A program made the translations under genes and the position numbers. Shown in pieces: positions 3,422 through 11,092 of a stretch of 46,342 bases of DNA. Every line of letters begins with the position of its first letter. The first letter of the stretch is position 1. The DNA comes from a virus: positions 1 through 46,342 of the IMG/VR virus record IMGVR_UViG_3300032242_001824, one strand, 5' to 3'. The notes under the pieces are model-generated. The model saw only the letters and a list, made by a program, of their open reading frames with translations, was not told the origin of the DNA and did no database searches.

Positions 3422-4066
3422 ATGAAAAAAATTTTGATTGCAACGCCATGCCTTGACCAAAAAGTCGATGCCTATTTTGTACATAGTCTTTGTGAATCCA
3501 TCAAACTTGGTATCAAAAATGATCTCGACATTCGCTGTGTCTTTCTTGCCAACGAGAGCATTCTTCCAATGGCAAGAAATGAACTCTTTGCACTAGCATA
3601 TAAAGAAAACTATGACACAATGGTTTTTATTGATGATGATGAAAGTTGGAAAGAACATGCACTAATCGAAATCATTCAATCAAACAAAGATGTTATATGC
3701 TTACCTGTCGTAAATAAAGGTGATGCTGATATTGCATTTAATGTTTGGTTAAACAAAGATATTGAAAAAGATCCATCAGATGGTTATATAAAAATCAATA
3801 AATGTGGTACAGGATTTCTAAAACTAACAAGAAAAGTAATTGAGGACCTATGGAACTCAAATACAGAGTTGGTTTTTAGAAACAAAAAACTAAAAAATAT
3901 TTGTGAATATACATATGTCAATGGTGATTTTATTGGTGAAGATGTCACACTCTGTAAAAAAATCAAAGAACTTGGATATGATATTTGGTTAAATCCAAAT
4001 CATACAGTTTCCCATATTGGCAATAAAATGTACAAGGGTGACTTTAAGACAAAAAATAATTTATGA
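3422..4066 (+). CDS. Glycosyltransferase-like protein, GT-A fold
   Basis: A 214-residue protein beginning MKKILIATPCLDQKVDAYF. The arrangement (N-terminal strand, ESILPMARNELFALA helix, then MVFIDDDESW) matches GT-A glycosyltransferases, with DDD as the metal/nucleotide-sugar DxD motif. GEDVTLCKK further on resembles the ED base region of family 2-like enzymes, and VSHIGN gives a late His. Sugar donor and acceptor are unknown. It is first in the operon behind the sigma70 promoter, and its stop overlaps the next gene by 4 nt. It could modify host surface glycan, phage protein or DNA; the neighbours favour a glycan pathway. Confidence 0.75.
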   Translation: MKKILIATPCLDQKVDAYFVHSLCESIKLGIKNDLDIRCVFLANESILPMARNELFALAYKENYDTMVFIDDDESWKEHALIEIIQSNKDVICLPVVNKGDADIAFNVWLNKDIEKDPSDGYIKINKCGTGFLKLTRKVIEDLWNSNTELVFRNKKLKNICEYTYVNGDFIGEDVTLCKKIKELGYDIWLNPNHTVSHIGNKMYKGDFKTKNNL

Positions 4067-5361
4067 TTGACGTTATTATTCCCACAATGTGGATGGCTGA
4101 AACCACAATAGATGCAATAAAAAAATATTGCAAATGTCCAAAAATCAGTAAAGTTATACTGATAGACAACAATCGAAAAATGCGACCTGAAGCATTTTCC
4201 AAAATTGCATCTAATTCAAAAATAGAATATGTGTCATACGGAAAAAACACATATGTCAATCCAGCATGGAATGAAGGTTATTACAGAAGCAAGTCCAACA
4301 TTATCGCAATCATCAACGATGACATAGTTGTGAATGATGATGTATTTGATTTAGTGTTGAATCATAATCCACAGCCTGGCGATCTGATCGGTGTAAATCT
4401 GCGTGGTTTTCAAGACAATTATAAGATTGATGACAACATAGATACTGCGGAAGAAATTGTTAAATTAAACTACAACAAAAATTATCCTATTGGTGGTCAG
4501 GCCTGGGCATTTGGAATTTGTTTGTTTATGCATAGAAAAACATATAGAGTTATTCCTAGCATATATCAGGTTTGGTACGGAGATGATTATATAGCACAGA
4601 GTGCAAAAAATATCTATGCAATCAATAGCAATAAGATAAAGGGTAAGATATCAGAAACTATTAAAAAGTTTAGTAATCCGAATGATGATATCTCTAAACG
4701 AATTGAGTTAGACTCTAAAAATTTTCTGAGGTTTAATCATTTCCAAAACGGAAAAAACTGGGATGTGCCAAAAAACATTATTAAAACCTATGAAGGCCAA
4801 CGGAAAAATGTAACGCAACATAAACAGGATGAACTCGAACTAGAATATCAACGTGCAAAAAAAACACCGAGTGATATCAATCAAAATTTACCTATACTTT
4901 ATGAATTGGCTAAAGAGTGTGAAACCATAATTGAGATGGGAGTCCGAACGGGTGTTAGTACACGAGCTTTTCTAAACACTGACGCTTCATTAATATCAAT
5001 TGATATTGAAAAAGACACAACTGTTGAAAAACTTTTTGCATTAGCTAGTGCAAAAGGAAAACTTTGTCATTATCTCGTTGCAGATGTTATGAATGTAGAA
5101 ATTCCAGAAACGGACCTGTTGTTTATTGACACACTACATACATATGAACAATTAAAACAAGAGTTAACTTTGCACGGAAATAAGGCAAAAAAGTATCTAA
5201 TTTTTCACGATACTTACACATTTGGATTGTTGGGTGAAAACGGTATCGATAAAAAAGGTCTTATGACTGCCATTATTGAATTTATAATTGCAAATCCACA
5301 TTGGAACTTTTATATCCACAAGACAAATAACAATGGTTTAACCGTTTTAAAGCGTTCGTAA
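4063..5361 (+). CDS. Glycosyltransferase-methyltransferase fusion
   Basis: A 432-residue, two-domain protein. The first ~250 residues look like a GT-A glycosyltransferase: MIDVIIPTMW, VILIDNN and IIAIINDDIVVNDDV, with NDD in the DxD position. The C-terminal part from about residue 270 is a class I SAM-dependent methyltransferase of the Methyltransf_24/CmcI-like type: IIEMGVRTGVSTRAFL (motif I, near residue 290), LISIDIE (acidic motif II), DLLFIDTLHTYEQ and YLIFHDTY. The domains are joined by a charged linker. It overlaps the preceding gene by 4 nt. The fusion suggests that a sugar is added and then methylated by one protein. Domain calls are good; substrates are unknown. Confidence 0.78.
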   Translation: MIDVIIPTMWMAETTIDAIKKYCKCPKISKVILIDNNRKMRPEAFSKIASNSKIEYVSYGKNTYVNPAWNEGYYRSKSNIIAIINDDIVVNDDVFDLVLNHNPQPGDLIGVNLRGFQDNYKIDDNIDTAEEIVKLNYNKNYPIGGQAWAFGICLFMHRKTYRVIPSIYQVWYGDDYIAQSAKNIYAINSNKIKGKISETIKKFSNPNDDISKRIELDSKNFLRFNHFQNGKNWDVPKNIIKTYEGQRKNVTQHKQDELELEYQRAKKTPSDINQNLPILYELAKECETIIEMGVRTGVSTRAFLNTDASLISIDIEKDTTVEKLFALASAKGKLCHYLVADVMNVEIPETDLLFIDTLHTYEQLKQELTLHGNKAKKYLIFHDTYTFGLLGENGIDKKGLMTAIIEFIIANPHWNFYIHKTNNNGLTVLKRS

Positions 5362-5394
5362 ATTATCATATAATTAAATTACATTGAGGAACAC

Positions 5395-6291
5395 ATGAAG
5401 TATAGCATTTTTCACGTCCAAGGCGGCATTGGTAAACATATTGCGGCGACAGCAGTTGCAAAGGCAATCAAGAACAATCATCCAGATAGAAAACTAATTG
5501 TTGTCTGTGCATATTCGGACATTTTCATTAACTTATCTTTTGTTGACCGTGTTTTTAATTTAGGTAATACGAGTTATTTTTATCAAGAATTCATTCAAGA
5601 TAAAGATTCTATAATTTTTTACCATGAGCCTTACTACACAACAAATCACATACACAAAAGAAAAAAACTTATTGAAAATTGGTGCGATTTATATGGCCTA
5701 AAATACAATGGTGAAACTCCCGAGTTGAAGTTTAATAAATTGCAATTTGATGTTTCCAAAACTGTCTGGAGTAGAAAAAAACCAATAATGGTTCTACACA
5801 CCAATGGTGGCCCAATGTCAACTGAAGTTAAGCCTTATGCTTGGACAAGAGACATGCCTATTGATATTGCACAAGAATTGGTTGAACACTACAAAAAAGA
5901 TTATCATATTTTTCAAATCACCAAAATAAATTCACCAAAATTAAAAGACGCTGAACATATATTTGCTACACCACAAAAATTTTTATCACTGATGGAATTG
6001 TTTAGTATTTTTCTCCATAGTAAAAAAAGAGTATTGATTGATTCTTGTATGCAACATGCCGCAAGTGCAATGAAACGAAAATCAACTGTGTTATGGAACG
6101 GAACAAGCCCAAAAGTCTTTGGTTACGATTTGCATGATAATATATGTACCGATATACCATATGATTTTAAACTTCCCGGAAGTTATCTATTTGATTTTGA
6201 CTTTAATGGTTATGAGGTTGAGTATCCATTCACCGATGATGTAAAATTATATGATATAAATAAAATTATAGAATCTATTGATAAACAATGA
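5395..6291 (+). CDS. Probable GT-B (family 9-like) glycosyltransferase
   Basis: A 298-residue protein starting MKYSIFHVQGGIGKHIAATA, with a Gly-rich loop after the first strand as in the N-domain of GT9/heptosyltransferase-like GT-B enzymes. The second half has PIMVLHTNGGP, YHIFQIT and VLIDSCMQHAASAMKRKSTVLW, which resembles the donor-binding C-domain (xDSxxxHxAxA) of that family. GAGGAA lies 5' of the ATG. It sits in the accessory operon between the GT-methyltransferase and the sulfotransferase. The GT-B call is by pattern only and less certain than for its neighbours; the acceptor is unknown. Confidence 0.62.
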   Translation: MKYSIFHVQGGIGKHIAATAVAKAIKNNHPDRKLIVVCAYSDIFINLSFVDRVFNLGNTSYFYQEFIQDKDSIIFYHEPYYTTNHIHKRKKLIENWCDLYGLKYNGETPELKFNKLQFDVSKTVWSRKKPIMVLHTNGGPMSTEVKPYAWTRDMPIDIAQELVEHYKKDYHIFQITKINSPKLKDAEHIFATPQKFLSLMELFSIFLHSKKRVLIDSCMQHAASAMKRKSTVLWNGTSPKVFGYDLHDNICTDIPYDFKLPGSYLFDFDFNGYEVEYPFTDDVKLYDINKIIESIDKQ

Positions 6292-6303
6292 GGGTAATAT
6301 GAA

Positions 6304-7239
6304 ATGAAAGAAATAAATAAAGAAATGATTCGTGAAGAAAAGAAATATTACTTTTTGTCCGGTCTACCTCGGTCTGGAAGCACTTTGCTTTCTTCAATTT
6401 TAAACCAAAATCCTAAGATGTATTCTGGACCAAGTTCGCCTGTCATGGCTATTATGCTTGCTTTAGAAAATGCAATCTCTGGTGAAGAGTTATTTTTGGC
6501 TTTTCCAAAAATGGCTCAAGCAAAAGGAATAATTAGTAGTGTTATTGAAAATTATTATTCAGATGTTGATAAACCGGTTATTATTGACAAAAATCGTTCA
6601 TGGGTGAATCGTATGCATTATATTCCAAATTATTTTGGAATTGAACCAAAAATTCTTTGCCCAGTCAGAAACATGGATGAAATTCTTACTTCATTTATTA
6701 GTATGCATCGTAGAAATCCAATGGAGATAAATGGTAGAATTAATTTTATAGATGAGATGTTGATTAAAAGTAATGTATCACTTACTGATGAAAATAGATG
6801 TGAAATACTATCTGGACCTAATGGTATCGTTGGACAAACTTATGTAGGTATTCAACAGGCTATACTGGAAGGTAAACAAAAACAACTTCATTTTATTGAG
6901 TATGATGATCTAATAAATGAACCGAGAGAAACGATGCGTAAAATTTACGAATTTTTAGGTGAAGATTATTTTGAACACGATTTTTCAAATATAAAAAACA
7001 TACATATAGAAAATGATGCTGGAGTATATGGTTTTTCAGATATGCATGATGTTCGCGGCAGTTTAGAAAAAGTTTTTCAAGATCCAAAAGAAATATTACC
7101 AGAATACATATATGAAAAATGTCAAGGAGCTGAATTTTGGAGAGATTTAAACGTAGATTATACTGAAGAAGTTGAAGATTACACAACAAACAAAAACGAA
7201 TCTTCAAATGAAGATGACACAAAACTTATAGGGCAGTAA
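6304..7239 (+). CDS. PAPS-dependent sulfotransferase
   Basis: A 311-residue protein. The N-terminal YYFLSGLPRSGSTLLSSIL contains the sulfotransferase 5'-phosphosulfate-binding loop (PRSGSTLL, about residues 22-29). ILCPVRNMDEILTSFISMHRR is the 3'-phosphate-binding segment (R and downstream S), as in the Sulfotransfer_3 family. Such enzymes move sulfate from PAPS to a hydroxyl or amine, often on glycans. The C-terminal 25 residues are acidic and probably disordered. GAGGG lies upstream of the ATG. It is encoded two genes before an APS kinase, the enzyme that makes PAPS, so donor synthesis and transfer appear linked. The acceptor cannot be read from sequence. Confidence 0.87.
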   Translation: MKEINKEMIREEKKYYFLSGLPRSGSTLLSSILNQNPKMYSGPSSPVMAIMLALENAISGEELFLAFPKMAQAKGIISSVIENYYSDVDKPVIIDKNRSWVNRMHYIPNYFGIEPKILCPVRNMDEILTSFISMHRRNPMEINGRINFIDEMLIKSNVSLTDENRCEILSGPNGIVGQTYVGIQQAILEGKQKQLHFIEYDDLINEPRETMRKIYEFLGEDYFEHDFSNIKNIHIENDAGVYGFSDMHDVRGSLEKVFQDPKEILPEYIYEKCQGAEFWRDLNVDYTEEVEDYTTNKNESSNEDDTKLIGQ

Positions 7240-7240
7240 A

Positions 7241-7495
7241 ATGGAAAATGAATCAAAAACACTTGAAGAAATTCGAGGCACTATTAGAGTAGCCAGAGAT
7301 AGTGTCTGGGAAATTGAAAATGAAATTAAAAAACTGACTGATGGTAAACCTCTTGACCAAGACAGTAAAGATAAGATTCATAGAAATGTTTCACACTTAG
7401 AGTGGGTTGTTTCCAATACAGATATTGTTAATTCTGGTGAAGACATTTCTGACCTTATTACAGCAATTGCCGCAGGTAAAGCAAAACTTTCTTAA
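7241..7495 (+). CDS. Small hypothetical helical protein
   Basis: An 84-residue, charged, helix-predicting protein (MENESKTLEEIRGTIRVARD, then EIENEIKKL and HRNVSHLEW). It has no Cys, no signal peptide and no motif I recognise. The start is one base after the sulfotransferase stop, so it is clearly in the same operon and is probably translationally coupled. Function unknown; a small partner of the sulfotransferase or APS kinase is possible but untested. Confidence 0.7.
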   Translation: MENESKTLEEIRGTIRVARDSVWEIENEIKKLTDGKPLDQDSKDKIHRNVSHLEWVVSNTDIVNSGEDISDLITAIAAGKAKLS

Positions 7496-7517
7496 TTTAT
7501 TTGATTTAATTTATATT

Positions 7518-8375
7518 ATGAAGAAAATTCTAATTATGGGATTGCCTGGTTCAGGTAAAACTTACCTTGCACAAAAACTTAAAACATATCTTGAATGTAA
7601 TGGTGATATTTTTAAAGTAAATCCAAGCAGATTAATGCACTATGAGGGTATGCCTTCGGGGGGTGTATTGAATGTACAAGTAGATTGGTTTAATGCAGAC
7701 CAGATACGTAAAAGATTTAATGATTGGGACTTTAGTAGAGAAGGTCGTATTCGTCAAAGTATACGAATGTTTGAATTTGCTATGAGATGTTCTGGAGATT
7801 TTGTCATATGTGATTTTGTTGCACCTTTGCCAGAAATGCGCCACAATTTTAAAGCAGATTGGACTATTTGGGTTGACACTATTCGTGAAAGTAAATACGA
7901 AGACACCAACAAAGCATTCGAACCACCAGAACAATATGATTTTCGTATTACTGAACAAGATGCAGACAAGTGGGCAGAGTTCATCGGAGAGCATATATTA
8001 TCCAATCGACGCCGACCTGTATTTGATTGGCAAAAACCAACAGTACAAATGTTGGGACGTTGGCAACCATGGCATGAAGGACATCGTAAATTGTTTGAAC
8101 GTGCTATTGCTAAGACTGGCCAAGTTGTGATTCAGATTAGAGACTGTCAGGGGTGGAACGGTACCAATCCATTCGCAACAGATCAAGTAAAGTATTTTAT
8201 CAGGCGCGATTTAGATATGCTTTATCAAGGTCAGTATGAAATTCAAGTAGTACCAAATATCACCAACATTACATATGGGCGCGATGTAGGTTATACTATT
8301 GAACAAGAAACATTTGATGACAATACTCATAGTATTAGTGCAACAGAAATTAGGAAATCTTTAGGTTTTAAATGA
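7518..8375 (+). CDS. APS kinase fused to an HxGH nucleotidylyltransferase
   Basis: 285 residues from ATG 7518; an earlier in-frame start would run through the preceding gene. Residues 1-160 are an adenylylsulfate kinase: Walker A GLPGSGKT (8-15), VDWFNADQIRKRFNDWDFS (the CysC substrate region), WTIWVDTI and the flexible lid EDTNKAFEPP. About 25 extra residues lie between the Walker A helix and the DWFNAD strand compared with compact APS kinases. Residues 172-285 are a cytidylyltransferase-like nucleotidylyltransferase: MLGRWQPWHEGHRKL (HEGH 186-189) and ISATEIR (273-279). APS kinase converts APS to PAPS. The second domain may supply APS (an ATP sulfurylase-like role) or do something else; its motifs are closer to NMNAT/PPAT-type enzymes than to classical ATP sulfurylase. 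No clear Shine-Dalgarno sequence is seen. Confidence 0.85.
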   Translation: MKKILIMGLPGSGKTYLAQKLKTYLECNGDIFKVNPSRLMHYEGMPSGGVLNVQVDWFNADQIRKRFNDWDFSREGRIRQSIRMFEFAMRCSGDFVICDFVAPLPEMRHNFKADWTIWVDTIRESKYEDTNKAFEPPEQYDFRITEQDADKWAEFIGEHILSNRRRPVFDWQKPTVQMLGRWQPWHEGHRKLFERAIAKTGQVVIQIRDCQGWNGTNPFATDQVKYFIRRDLDMLYQGQYEIQVVPNITNITYGRDVGYTIEQETFDDNTHSISATEIRKSLGFK

Positions 8376-8390: not shown

Positions 8391-8419
8391 TTGACAAACG
8401 ATTGGACTTATGTTATGAT
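8391..8419 (+). promoter_or_regulatory. Consensus sigma70 promoter upstream of the tmRNA
   Basis: TTGACA (8391-8396), a 17-bp spacer and TATGAT (8414-8419). The -10 box continues GTGTCT, exactly as in the promoter at 11064-11092. Transcription would begin near 8426 and run through the small ORF into the tmRNA. Confidence 0.82.
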
Positions 8420-8455: not shown

Positions 8456-8587
8456 ATGAAAGTTAAAAAACTTATTCATAAGATGTATCTGGCATGTGTA
8501 CGGCATGAAGCGGAGAAAGAAAAGAAATTGTGGTTTAAGATTCTTAAAAAAAGTCTTAAACACAAGGGTACCCAAGCGGTACAATAA
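8456..8587 (+). CDS. Possible 43-residue Lys-rich peptide in the tmRNA leader
   Basis: A short frame from ATG 8456 to TAA 8587, with AGGA 8 nt upstream. It begins MKVKKLIHKMYLACVRHE and is strongly basic (many Lys). It lies between the sigma70 promoter and the tmRNA acceptor piece on what must be the same transcript. It may be a real small protein or simply the 5' leader of pre-tmRNA. No family recognised. Confidence 0.42.
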   Translation: MKVKKLIHKMYLACVRHEAEKEKKLWFKILKKSLKHKGTQAVQ

Positions 8588-8651
8588 TGATAGTAAACTT
8601 GGTATAAGAAAAGTATTTTGGACGCCGGGGCAGTACCGGCCCAGTCCACCA

Positions 8652-8682
8652 TAAGTGTATAGGCCTTTTGTGCATTTATGAT
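8652..8682 (+). other. Intervening segment of the permuted pre-tmRNA
   Basis: This segment separates the encoded CCA from the mature 5' end of the coding piece. Bases 8651-8659 can pair with 8671-8679 (9 bp, two wobble pairs) around an 11-nt loop, so that it stacks on the acceptor stem across a symmetric 3x3 internal loop. It should be removed by tRNA-type processing (RNase P at the 5' end of the coding piece, plus 3' trimming to CCA). Confidence 0.8.
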
Positions 8683-8766
8683 GGGCTGGAAATAGTTTCG
8701 ACAAAGTAACAAGTAAGATATTTGGCTATCCGTCAGAGTTGACGTAAAAACTAAATCAAAATAAAT

Positions 8767-8799
8767 GCAAACGATTCTGCATACCGCCTAGCCGCTTGA
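8767..8799 (+). other. tmRNA tag reading frame, ANDSAYRLAA-stop
   Basis: From the GCA resume codon the frame reads A-N-D-S-A-Y-R-L-A-A then TGA. With the alanine carried on the tmRNA, the tag would be AANDSAYRLAA. Compared with E. coli AANDENYALAA, the AAND start (SspB/ClpA side) and LAA end (ClpX side) are kept. Confidence 0.92.
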
Positions 8800-8816
8800 G
8801 GTTAAGCTGAGGTTTC

Positions 8817-8847
8817 GCCAACTGTCCTTATCATCCAATCAGTTGGC
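8817..8847 (+). terminator. Stem-loop after the tmRNA
   Basis: GCCAACTG (8817-8824) and CAGTTGGC (8840-8847) are a perfect 8-bp inverted repeat with a 15-nt loop. Only a weak T-containing stretch follows (actttgttatt). It may act as a partial terminator, mark the 3' processing boundary of the coding piece, or be part of the tmRNA itself. Confidence 0.45.
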
Positions 8848-8873
8848 ACTTTGTTATTAACAGGAAAGAAAAC

Positions 8874-9428
8874 ATGAAAAGTAAACCAATACTTTTGAGC
8901 ATGGTATTTTCCACAGTCATTATATTCCTCTCTTTGGTAAATGTAAACCTTTACAATCTACCATTCAAAGCTAGTTACGAATCTCTAGATAAAGAGACAC
9001 AAAAACAAGTAACATGCCTAGCCGATAATATGTATTTTGAAGCCGCTAATGAGCCACTTGATGGCCAGAAAGCCGTTGCTTTTGTTACAATTAATCGGCT
9101 ACTAACAGGAAATTATGGTAATGACATTTGTGGAGTAGTGACTCAAAAAACTGGCAGAACATGCCAATTCTCATGGTACTGTGAGAAAAAGATTACCGAT
9201 AAAAGGTTGACAGTACGTGACACTTTGTTATATAATGAGATTCGTGAGTTAGCCGTTAACATGGTCATCAATTATGAACATCTTCAGGATGTCACATTTG
9301 GTTCAACATATTATCACGCTGACTATGTTCATCCAGAATGGAAATTAGAAAAGGTGCAACAAATTGGAAGACACATCTTTTACAGAAGTAGCAAAGACGA
9401 AATTGACCGAAACAAAGGAATCATTTAA
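8874..9428 (+). CDS. SleB-like cell-wall hydrolase (endolysin) with N-terminal anchor
   Basis: A 184-residue protein. Residues about 5-26 form a hydrophobic segment (ILLSMVFSTVIIFLSLV) that serves as signal anchor or signal peptide. The rest matches the SleB/Hydrolase_2 family: CLADNMYFEAANEPLDGQKAVAFVTINRL, with the Glu of YFEA as the likely catalytic acid, then CGVVTQ and CQFSWYC, and FGSTYYHADYVHPEW. These enzymes cleave peptidoglycan glycan strands. With an N-terminal anchor it may be exported by the host Sec system and released at lysis (SAR-type). AGGAAAG stands 5 nt before the ATG. The small membrane protein that follows could be a lysis partner. The family call is strong; the SAR mechanism is inferred. 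Confidence 0.87.
   Translation: MKSKPILLSMVFSTVIIFLSLVNVNLYNLPFKASYESLDKETQKQVTCLADNMYFEAANEPLDGQKAVAFVTINRLLTGNYGNDICGVVTQKTGRTCQFSWYCEKKITDKRLTVRDTLLYNEIRELAVNMVINYEHLQDVTFGSTYYHADYVHPEWKLEKVQQIGRHIFYRSSKDEIDRNKGII
9207..9236 (+). promoter_or_regulatory. Possible internal sigma70 promoter in the endolysin gene
   Basis: TTGACA (9207-9212), an 18-bp spacer and TATAAT (9231-9236) lie inside the endolysin coding sequence, about 190 bp before the next start. It could drive the membrane protein, gp33 and gp59 independently. Being inside a gene, it may be fortuitous. Confidence 0.4.
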
Positions 9429-11063: not shown

Positions 11064-11092
11064 TTGACAAGTTATTCGTTATGTGTTATAAT
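11064..11092 (+). promoter_or_regulatory. Consensus sigma70 promoter giving a leaderless transcript
   Basis: TTGACA (11064-11069), a 17-bp spacer and TATAAT (11087-11092), both boxes perfect. The expected start is about 7 nt after the -10 box, i.e. at or next to the ATG at 11099. Confidence 0.85.

Follow-up and report, generated by a model that had tools for sequence, protein, structure and literature searches.

Permuted tmRNA is generally regarded as a housekeeping RNA that evolves slowly. The window (i.e., the whole stretch of DNA analyzed, 46,342 bases of the IMG/VR virus record IMGVR_UViG_3300032242_001824) is a fragment of a T4-like myophage genome, with marker genes for PhoH, gp5, gp6, gp32, gp59, an exonuclease, and a late-transcription regulator. 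By gp6, the closest isolates include the Pelagibacter phages HTVC008M and Mosig and the Methylophilales phage Melnitz (~41% identity). The tmRNA gene lies in the order PhoH, exonuclease, tmRNA, endolysin, late regulator, gp59, 5' nucleotidase, gp32. Many IMG/VR contigs that carry a permuted tmRNA show this order too, complete or partial, and the gene thus holds a fixed place in the phage lineage. Its downstream neighbor, a cell-wall hydrolase (endolysin; 8874..9428, plus strand; PF07486, E 7.4e-20; phrog_938), served as the marker gene for comparing the phages. Upstream, a lysine-rich open reading frame of 43 residues (8456..8587, plus strand) stops 1 nt before the acceptor piece; many relatives have a homologue (55-66% identical) immediately upstream of their tmRNA, and in one contig (L006) a homologue is located away from it. 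The region between the exonuclease and the tmRNA (4063-8375) carries a glycosyltransferase/methyltransferase, a sulfotransferase, and an APS-kinase-like protein as cargo. In several relatives, L425 among them, an extra gene is inserted between tmRNA and endolysin; by eye, its product looks like a secreted β-barrel with a signal peptide.

A blastn search of the tmRNA region against 50,697 phage records gave no match, and the tmRNA alone gave short matches only. As tmRNA genes are, in general, frequent integration sites, the gene might be host DNA, brought in by contamination or as the attachment-site copy of a temperate phage. This origin is highly improbable: in many contigs, the gene is fixed among T4-like neighbors, with PhoH and the exonuclease upstream and the endolysin, late regulator, gp59, and gp32 downstream; isolated lytic phages carry permuted tmRNAs too, and the nearest known matches are phage contigs.

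The gene is complete and circularly permuted (8589-8856, plus strand). The Rfam model of permuted tmRNA (RF04321, tmRNA_permuted) is matched over its full length, with both pieces in the permuted order (8589-8799, model positions 1-213 of 213; 123.6 bits, cut-off 47). Among the clade models, betaproteobacterial RF01850 (beta_tmRNA) passes its cut-off of 84 narrowly, by 7.5 bits (91.5 bits, 8542-8856), and alphaproteobacterial RF01849 (alpha_tmRNA) is matched short of its full length (77.2 bits, 8568-8775 only, model positions 40-240 of 355). In cmscan over the whole window, the E values were 7.8e-24 for RF04321 and 1.8e-26 for RF01850. ARAGORN also reports a permuted tmRNA, with the tag ANDSAYRLAA. 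The initial annotation, made from the letters alone, had proposed a phage-encoded permuted tmRNA and named an Infernal scan with Rfam models as its check; that scan places the permuted model RF04321 on top by score. Neither of the two results named there as grounds for rejection, a lack of any model match and a lack of compensatory changes, was obtained.

All parts of a two-piece tmRNA can be assigned on the plus strand. The acceptor piece (8589..8651, from the RF04321 alignment and pair counts) comprises strands of helix 2 (8589-8593, 8602-8605, and 8614-8620), the T arm (8624-8640, loop GGCAGUA at 8629-8635), the acceptor 3' strand (8641-8647), A73 (8648), and an encoded CCA (8649-8651). It is followed by an intervening segment (8652..8682) that, by its position in the permuted model, is predicted to be removed, and that folds into a long helix in the minimum free energy structure. 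The coding piece (8683..8847, from the RF04321 and RF01850 alignments) begins with the acceptor 5' strand GGGCTGG (8683-8689) and the D loop (8690-8701), continues through TTTCGAC (8696-8702), helix 2 (8702-8708), and a CGTC/GACG hairpin (8731-8744), and includes the tag, the 3' pseudoknot, and a further hairpin. The tag frame (8767..8799, identified by ARAGORN and in the sequence) opens with the resume codon GCA and reads GCA AAC GAT TCT GCA TAC CGC CTA GCC GCT TGA, i.e., ANDSAYRLAA and a stop, so that with the charged alanine added the tag is AANDSAYRLAA. Within 8808..8847, a 3' pseudoknot was recognized by eye (UGAGG at 8808-8812 with CCUUA at 8826-8830), for which the RF01850 consensus pair CGGGG/CCUUG is a compensatory counterpart; the adjoining 3' stem, GCCAACUG (8817-8824) with CAGUUGGC (8840-8847), matches the 3' hairpin of RF01850. 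The acceptor stem has 7 bp and a single wobble, G3-U70. This anatomy agrees with the initial annotation in the T arm, acceptor strand, and encoded CCA (8624-8651), the complementary acceptor 5' strand, the TTTCGAC signature, the hairpin after it, the complete frame ending in LAA and a stop, the lone G-U at position 3, the pairing of 8702-8708 with 8614-8620 (the same in the covariance model), and the helix in the intervening segment.

The folding of the RNA is also supported statistically. The window's tmRNA folds better than 200/200 shuffled sequences (z-score -3.6). In 112 non-redundant phage tmRNAs, the pairing of helices 2a and 2b reaches 93-94% and includes two-sided changes, as opposed to 11-55% after a one-base slide of the partner strand. 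Pairing is 100% for the acceptor and T stems of the same set, which counts for less, as pairing was part of the selection of these sequences. The window thus carries a complete permuted two-piece tmRNA gene that has alanine identity, a full tag frame, and helices that co-vary.

A probable transcript start is marked by a σ70-type promoter, TTGACA-N17-TATGAT (8391..8419, plus strand; 11/12 consensus). The pattern TTGACA-N17-TATNAT occurs twice in the window against 0.07 expected, and a similar promoter lies just upstream of the tmRNA in three relatives (L431, L433, and L442). A second, perfect σ70 promoter (12/12, with TG before the -10 element) is located at 11064-11092. T4 late promoters (TATAAATA) occur at chance level in the window, with none just upstream of the tmRNA gene. 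The end of the small reading frame overlaps a hairpin, GTACC/GGTAC (8568..8582, plus strand); relatives have a hairpin of another sequence (CACC/GGTG) at this site, and the alpha_tmRNA model has a consensus hairpin at the same position. No match to a glutamine riboswitch, such as that of Melnitz, was found at the window's tmRNA.

Conservation in the acceptor stem suggests that the RNA is charged. All 23 of 23 distinct viral acceptor stems have 7/7 pairs and G3-U70, and G3-U70 was present in 17/17 stems of an earlier, smaller set; at least 6/7 pairs were required for inclusion in either set, and G3-U70 was not. Alanylation therefore looks selected, and the retention of G3-U70, A73, and CCA while positions 4-7 vary freely argues for a charged, working tmRNA. 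The LAA end is what ClpXP reads, and it is kept in the RLAA of the window's tag; 63 of the 85 distinct viral tags end in LAA, the others in VAA, MAA, IAA, LVA, or MVA, so that protease delivery may differ among phages. SmpB (PF01668) was not found in 13 phage records, which may be incomplete (among them the window, Melnitz, HTVC008M, Mosig, and contigs as long as 332 kb); host SmpB would thus be used.

The working model is accordingly phrased around host partners. Early in infection, the host polymerase would make one precursor from the near-consensus host-type promoter, and RNase P together with other tRNA-processing enzymes would excise the intervening segment, leaving two pieces held together by the acceptor stem and helix 2. 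The two-piece tmRNA would be charged by host AlaRS and carried to stalled ribosomes by host SmpB and EF-Tu, where the ANDSAYRLAA tag would send the unfinished protein to host proteases; such rescue might keep ribosomes free during the destruction of host mRNA. As proposed in the initial annotation, the RNA may supplement or replace the tmRNA of the host, and its tag may alter what becomes of tagged proteins. Alternatively, the RNA could be a decoy tying up the host's tmRNA partners, like the tag-less form of phage DS6A, which is described as inhibiting host tmRNA when expressed in E. coli (PMC11915505). The variable tail of the tag (RLAA, LMVA, LMAA, and LVA) would suit a decoy, but this is unlikely: the tag frame of the window and of nearly all relatives is complete, including resume signal and stop, most distinct tags end in LAA, and G3-U70 is kept in every stem.

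Comparison of related contigs shows that, as the tmRNA gene of this lineage evolves, its scaffold stays constant and two modules are exchanged. One is the tRNA-like domain, i.e., the T arm and acceptor 3' strand with the acceptor 5' strand and D loop; the other is the tag with the 3' pseudoknot. The tRNA-like domain changes jointly at two sites ~90 nt apart, and the scaffold is 97-100% identical between phages whose domains are 41-45% identical. L348 and L350, for instance, share the upstream region (99%), the intervening segment (97%), the core (100%), and the tag (100%), and are 41% identical in the T arm/acceptor 3' strand and 45% in the acceptor 5' strand/D loop. In L345 and L351, all flanks are 99-100% identical, with values of 68/55% for the domain and 60% for the intervening segment; L324/L327 against L372 provide a third, looser case (86% upstream). 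The same place of breakage is seen between L318 and L319, which have identical endolysins and 94.8% DNA identity over 2 kb. The second module is exchanged between L002 and L017 (94.6% over 7 kb), which are alike up to GCAAACGAC of the tag and then continue into a different tag and pseudoknot. Across 16 relatives, nucleotide diversity is mostly 0-0.06 in the scaffold (0.08 in a sliding window running into the T stem), compared with 0.24 in the T arm, 0.15 in the acceptor/D loop, and 0.24-0.36 in the tag/3' part.

Ordinary stepwise compensatory mutation could also diversify the tRNA-like domain, and compensatory changes are indeed present in helices everywhere. It is an improbable explanation, since ~13 of 22 T arm/acceptor positions and ~6 of 11 acceptor/D-loop positions differ while ~290 surrounding nt change by 0-3%, an identical 24+12 nt domain occurs in phages with different intervening segments, scaffolds, and tags, and no intermediates were seen. 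All exchange cases come from metagenome assemblies, each being a short-read contig from a sample with coexisting close strains, from which chimeric assembly could create mosaics. That the mosaics are such artifacts is nonetheless improbable: the domain halves, ~90 nt apart, always match (7/7 pairs, with agreeing D- and T-loop classes), and each combination was found again in independent samples. On one scaffold, all four of the 4 combinations of two domains and two tags are present, each in at least 2 metagenomes.

The window's gene is, by its sequence, such a mosaic: its elbow is alpha-type, its 3' module is ANESVYRLAA-like, and its scaffold is common to close relatives with other modules. 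In the nearest phage, L452, the neighboring proteins are 81-92% and the scaffold 93-94% identical to those of the window, and the identity is 55% in the T part, 55% in the D part, and 68% in the 3' module. In the more distant L349 (neighbors 48-78%), the corresponding values are 82%, 82%, and 90%. The combined reading, a working alanine-charged two-piece tmRNA in a lineage that exchanges two modules of its gene, is given a probability of about 0.8. No description of modular exchange with matched elbow types was found in the literature searched, which covers the field in part, and the exchange in this lineage seems to be new.

The type of elbow is a point missed in the initial annotation. The window combines the T loop GGCAGUA with AG in the D loop instead of the UUCRANY and GG of the betaproteobacterial form, although for its coding piece and 3' part the betaproteobacterial model gives the best fit. 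GGCAGUA was considered as a novelty and rejected, as GGCAGUA/AG is the alphaproteobacterial norm (the RF01849 consensus), seen throughout SAR11 genomes. In their passages on the T loop, Burks et al. 2005 report GG for the mitochondrion of Reclinomonas and, for Caulobacter, one change of this sort, without mention there of a D-loop partner (PMC1168896). In 100 distinct viral and 40 bacterial domains, for which only A or G was admitted as the D-loop base, T-loop U55 occurs with D-loop G18 in 40/40 cases and G55 with A18 in 100/100; when any D-loop base was admitted, the rule also held in 53 distinct domains. G55 is found within GGCRGUA, GGCRGAA, or UGCRANY, always with A18. The numbering of bases 18 and 55 follows the analogy with tRNA; the two bases presumably touch each other. 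The domain sequences are related, and counts of distinct domains represent neither independent events nor numbers of events; on an endolysin tree (86 rows), which may itself be affected by recombination, the T-loop class changes at least 19 times (shuffled mean 31.7), and the rule holds without exception despite these changes.

Other variation in the elbow and its bacterial counterparts was also recorded. In the permuted tmRNAs of L318, L433, L440, and L457, AAUYGAU stands in place of the universal D-loop motif UUCGAC, and helix 2 is changed to match (108-123 bits). No more than two T-arm alleles, mainly a SAR11 one, were identical between viruses and bacteria, in viruses other than that of the window. 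Bacterial comparators from the phylum sample had, where parsed, almost only alpha-type elbows. The usual lineages with permuted tmRNA are alpha, beta, and cyano; outside them fall a Sinobacteraceae MAG (L231/L316, G001; 121 bits, alpha-type T loop) and another genome of its order (L395, G028; beta-type match, 121 bits). A host-gene search in the order of a gammaproteobacterium with a beta-type match yielded 36 matching nt only. In contigs of Saccharibacteria and Omnitrophota (L196, L228, L261, and L255), TCCACCA or TCCACTA was noticed after the T-arm motif GGCAGUA; in the single genome checked among these (G003, L196), RF04321 had no match.

The exchange may be due to matching to host partners, to evasion of an enzyme that recognizes the elbow or the gene, or to hitch-hiking, with recombination being frequent. 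One tentative explanation, possible rather than probable, is that the tRNA-like domain is under diversifying selection, with matched cassettes exchanged, and G3-U70 kept for charging, so as to escape recognition or to match the SmpB proteins of different hosts. The elbow or acceptor stem may then be recognized by a tRNA/tmRNA-cutting defense, or by an integrase or homing enzyme aimed at tmRNA genes, and the permuted order would help the exchange, since in it the whole domain forms a single uninterrupted stretch between conserved motifs. Whatever the cause, near-identical phages with different, internally matched tRNA-like domains and tags constitute a natural domain-swap series, with which one can ask directly what in tmRNA must match SmpB, AlaRS, EF-Tu, or the protease. 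The series also bears on why phages keep a tmRNA and whether something attacks its tRNA half, and the U55-G18/G55-A18 pairing offers a simple, structurally testable elbow rule.

As a gene, the window's tmRNA is of a kind already known in phages. The paper on Melnitz reports its two-piece tmRNA gene, counts 53 of 133 distinct phage tmRNAs as two-piece, and finds permuted genes in 17/47 related contigs (PMC9004378). RF04321 matches Melnitz (113.4 bits), Mosig (93.6), and HTVC008M (90.6), with no match in Caulobacter phage Cr30. In IMG/VR, a degenerate pattern scan returned 68 stretches, ~59 of them with permuted tmRNAs by ARAGORN, and a T-loop pattern scan at least 120; most stretches from both scans are permuted tmRNAs by ARAGORN, among the matches listed. 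The initial annotation was right that this T4-like phage encodes a permuted tmRNA bearing a tag of its own, but mistaken in calling the form rare in such phages, because Melnitz, Mosig, HTVC008M, and very many IMG/VR contigs carry one (PMC9004378).

Compared with known systems, the window resembles Melnitz, HTVC008M, and Mosig in having a permuted tmRNA in a related T4-like myophage, and differs from them in the endolysin that adjoins the gene. The Melnitz tmRNA is alpha-type, with a glutamine riboswitch and the tag ANDNYVPVDYALAA, whereas that of the window matches the beta model best and lacks a riboswitch match. Betaproteobacterial permuted tmRNA (RF01850) is the best clade model, over its full length, and is alike in the arrangement of 3' hairpin and pseudoknot, but has the T loop UUCGAUU with GG in the D loop. 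Alphaproteobacterial tmRNA (RF01849, including SAR11) shares the T loop GGCRGUA and the D-loop AG with the window, whose tag-coding and 3' parts do not fit that model, 8568-8775 alone doing so. The IMG/VR relatives share scaffold and lineage with the window and differ from it by their tags, i.e., ANDSEYRLAA (L002/L024/L044), ANDSRFLMVA (L011/L017/L046/L059), ANESVYRLAA (L349/L435/L445), and ANDEKFALAA (L452), and more than one T-loop class is present among them.
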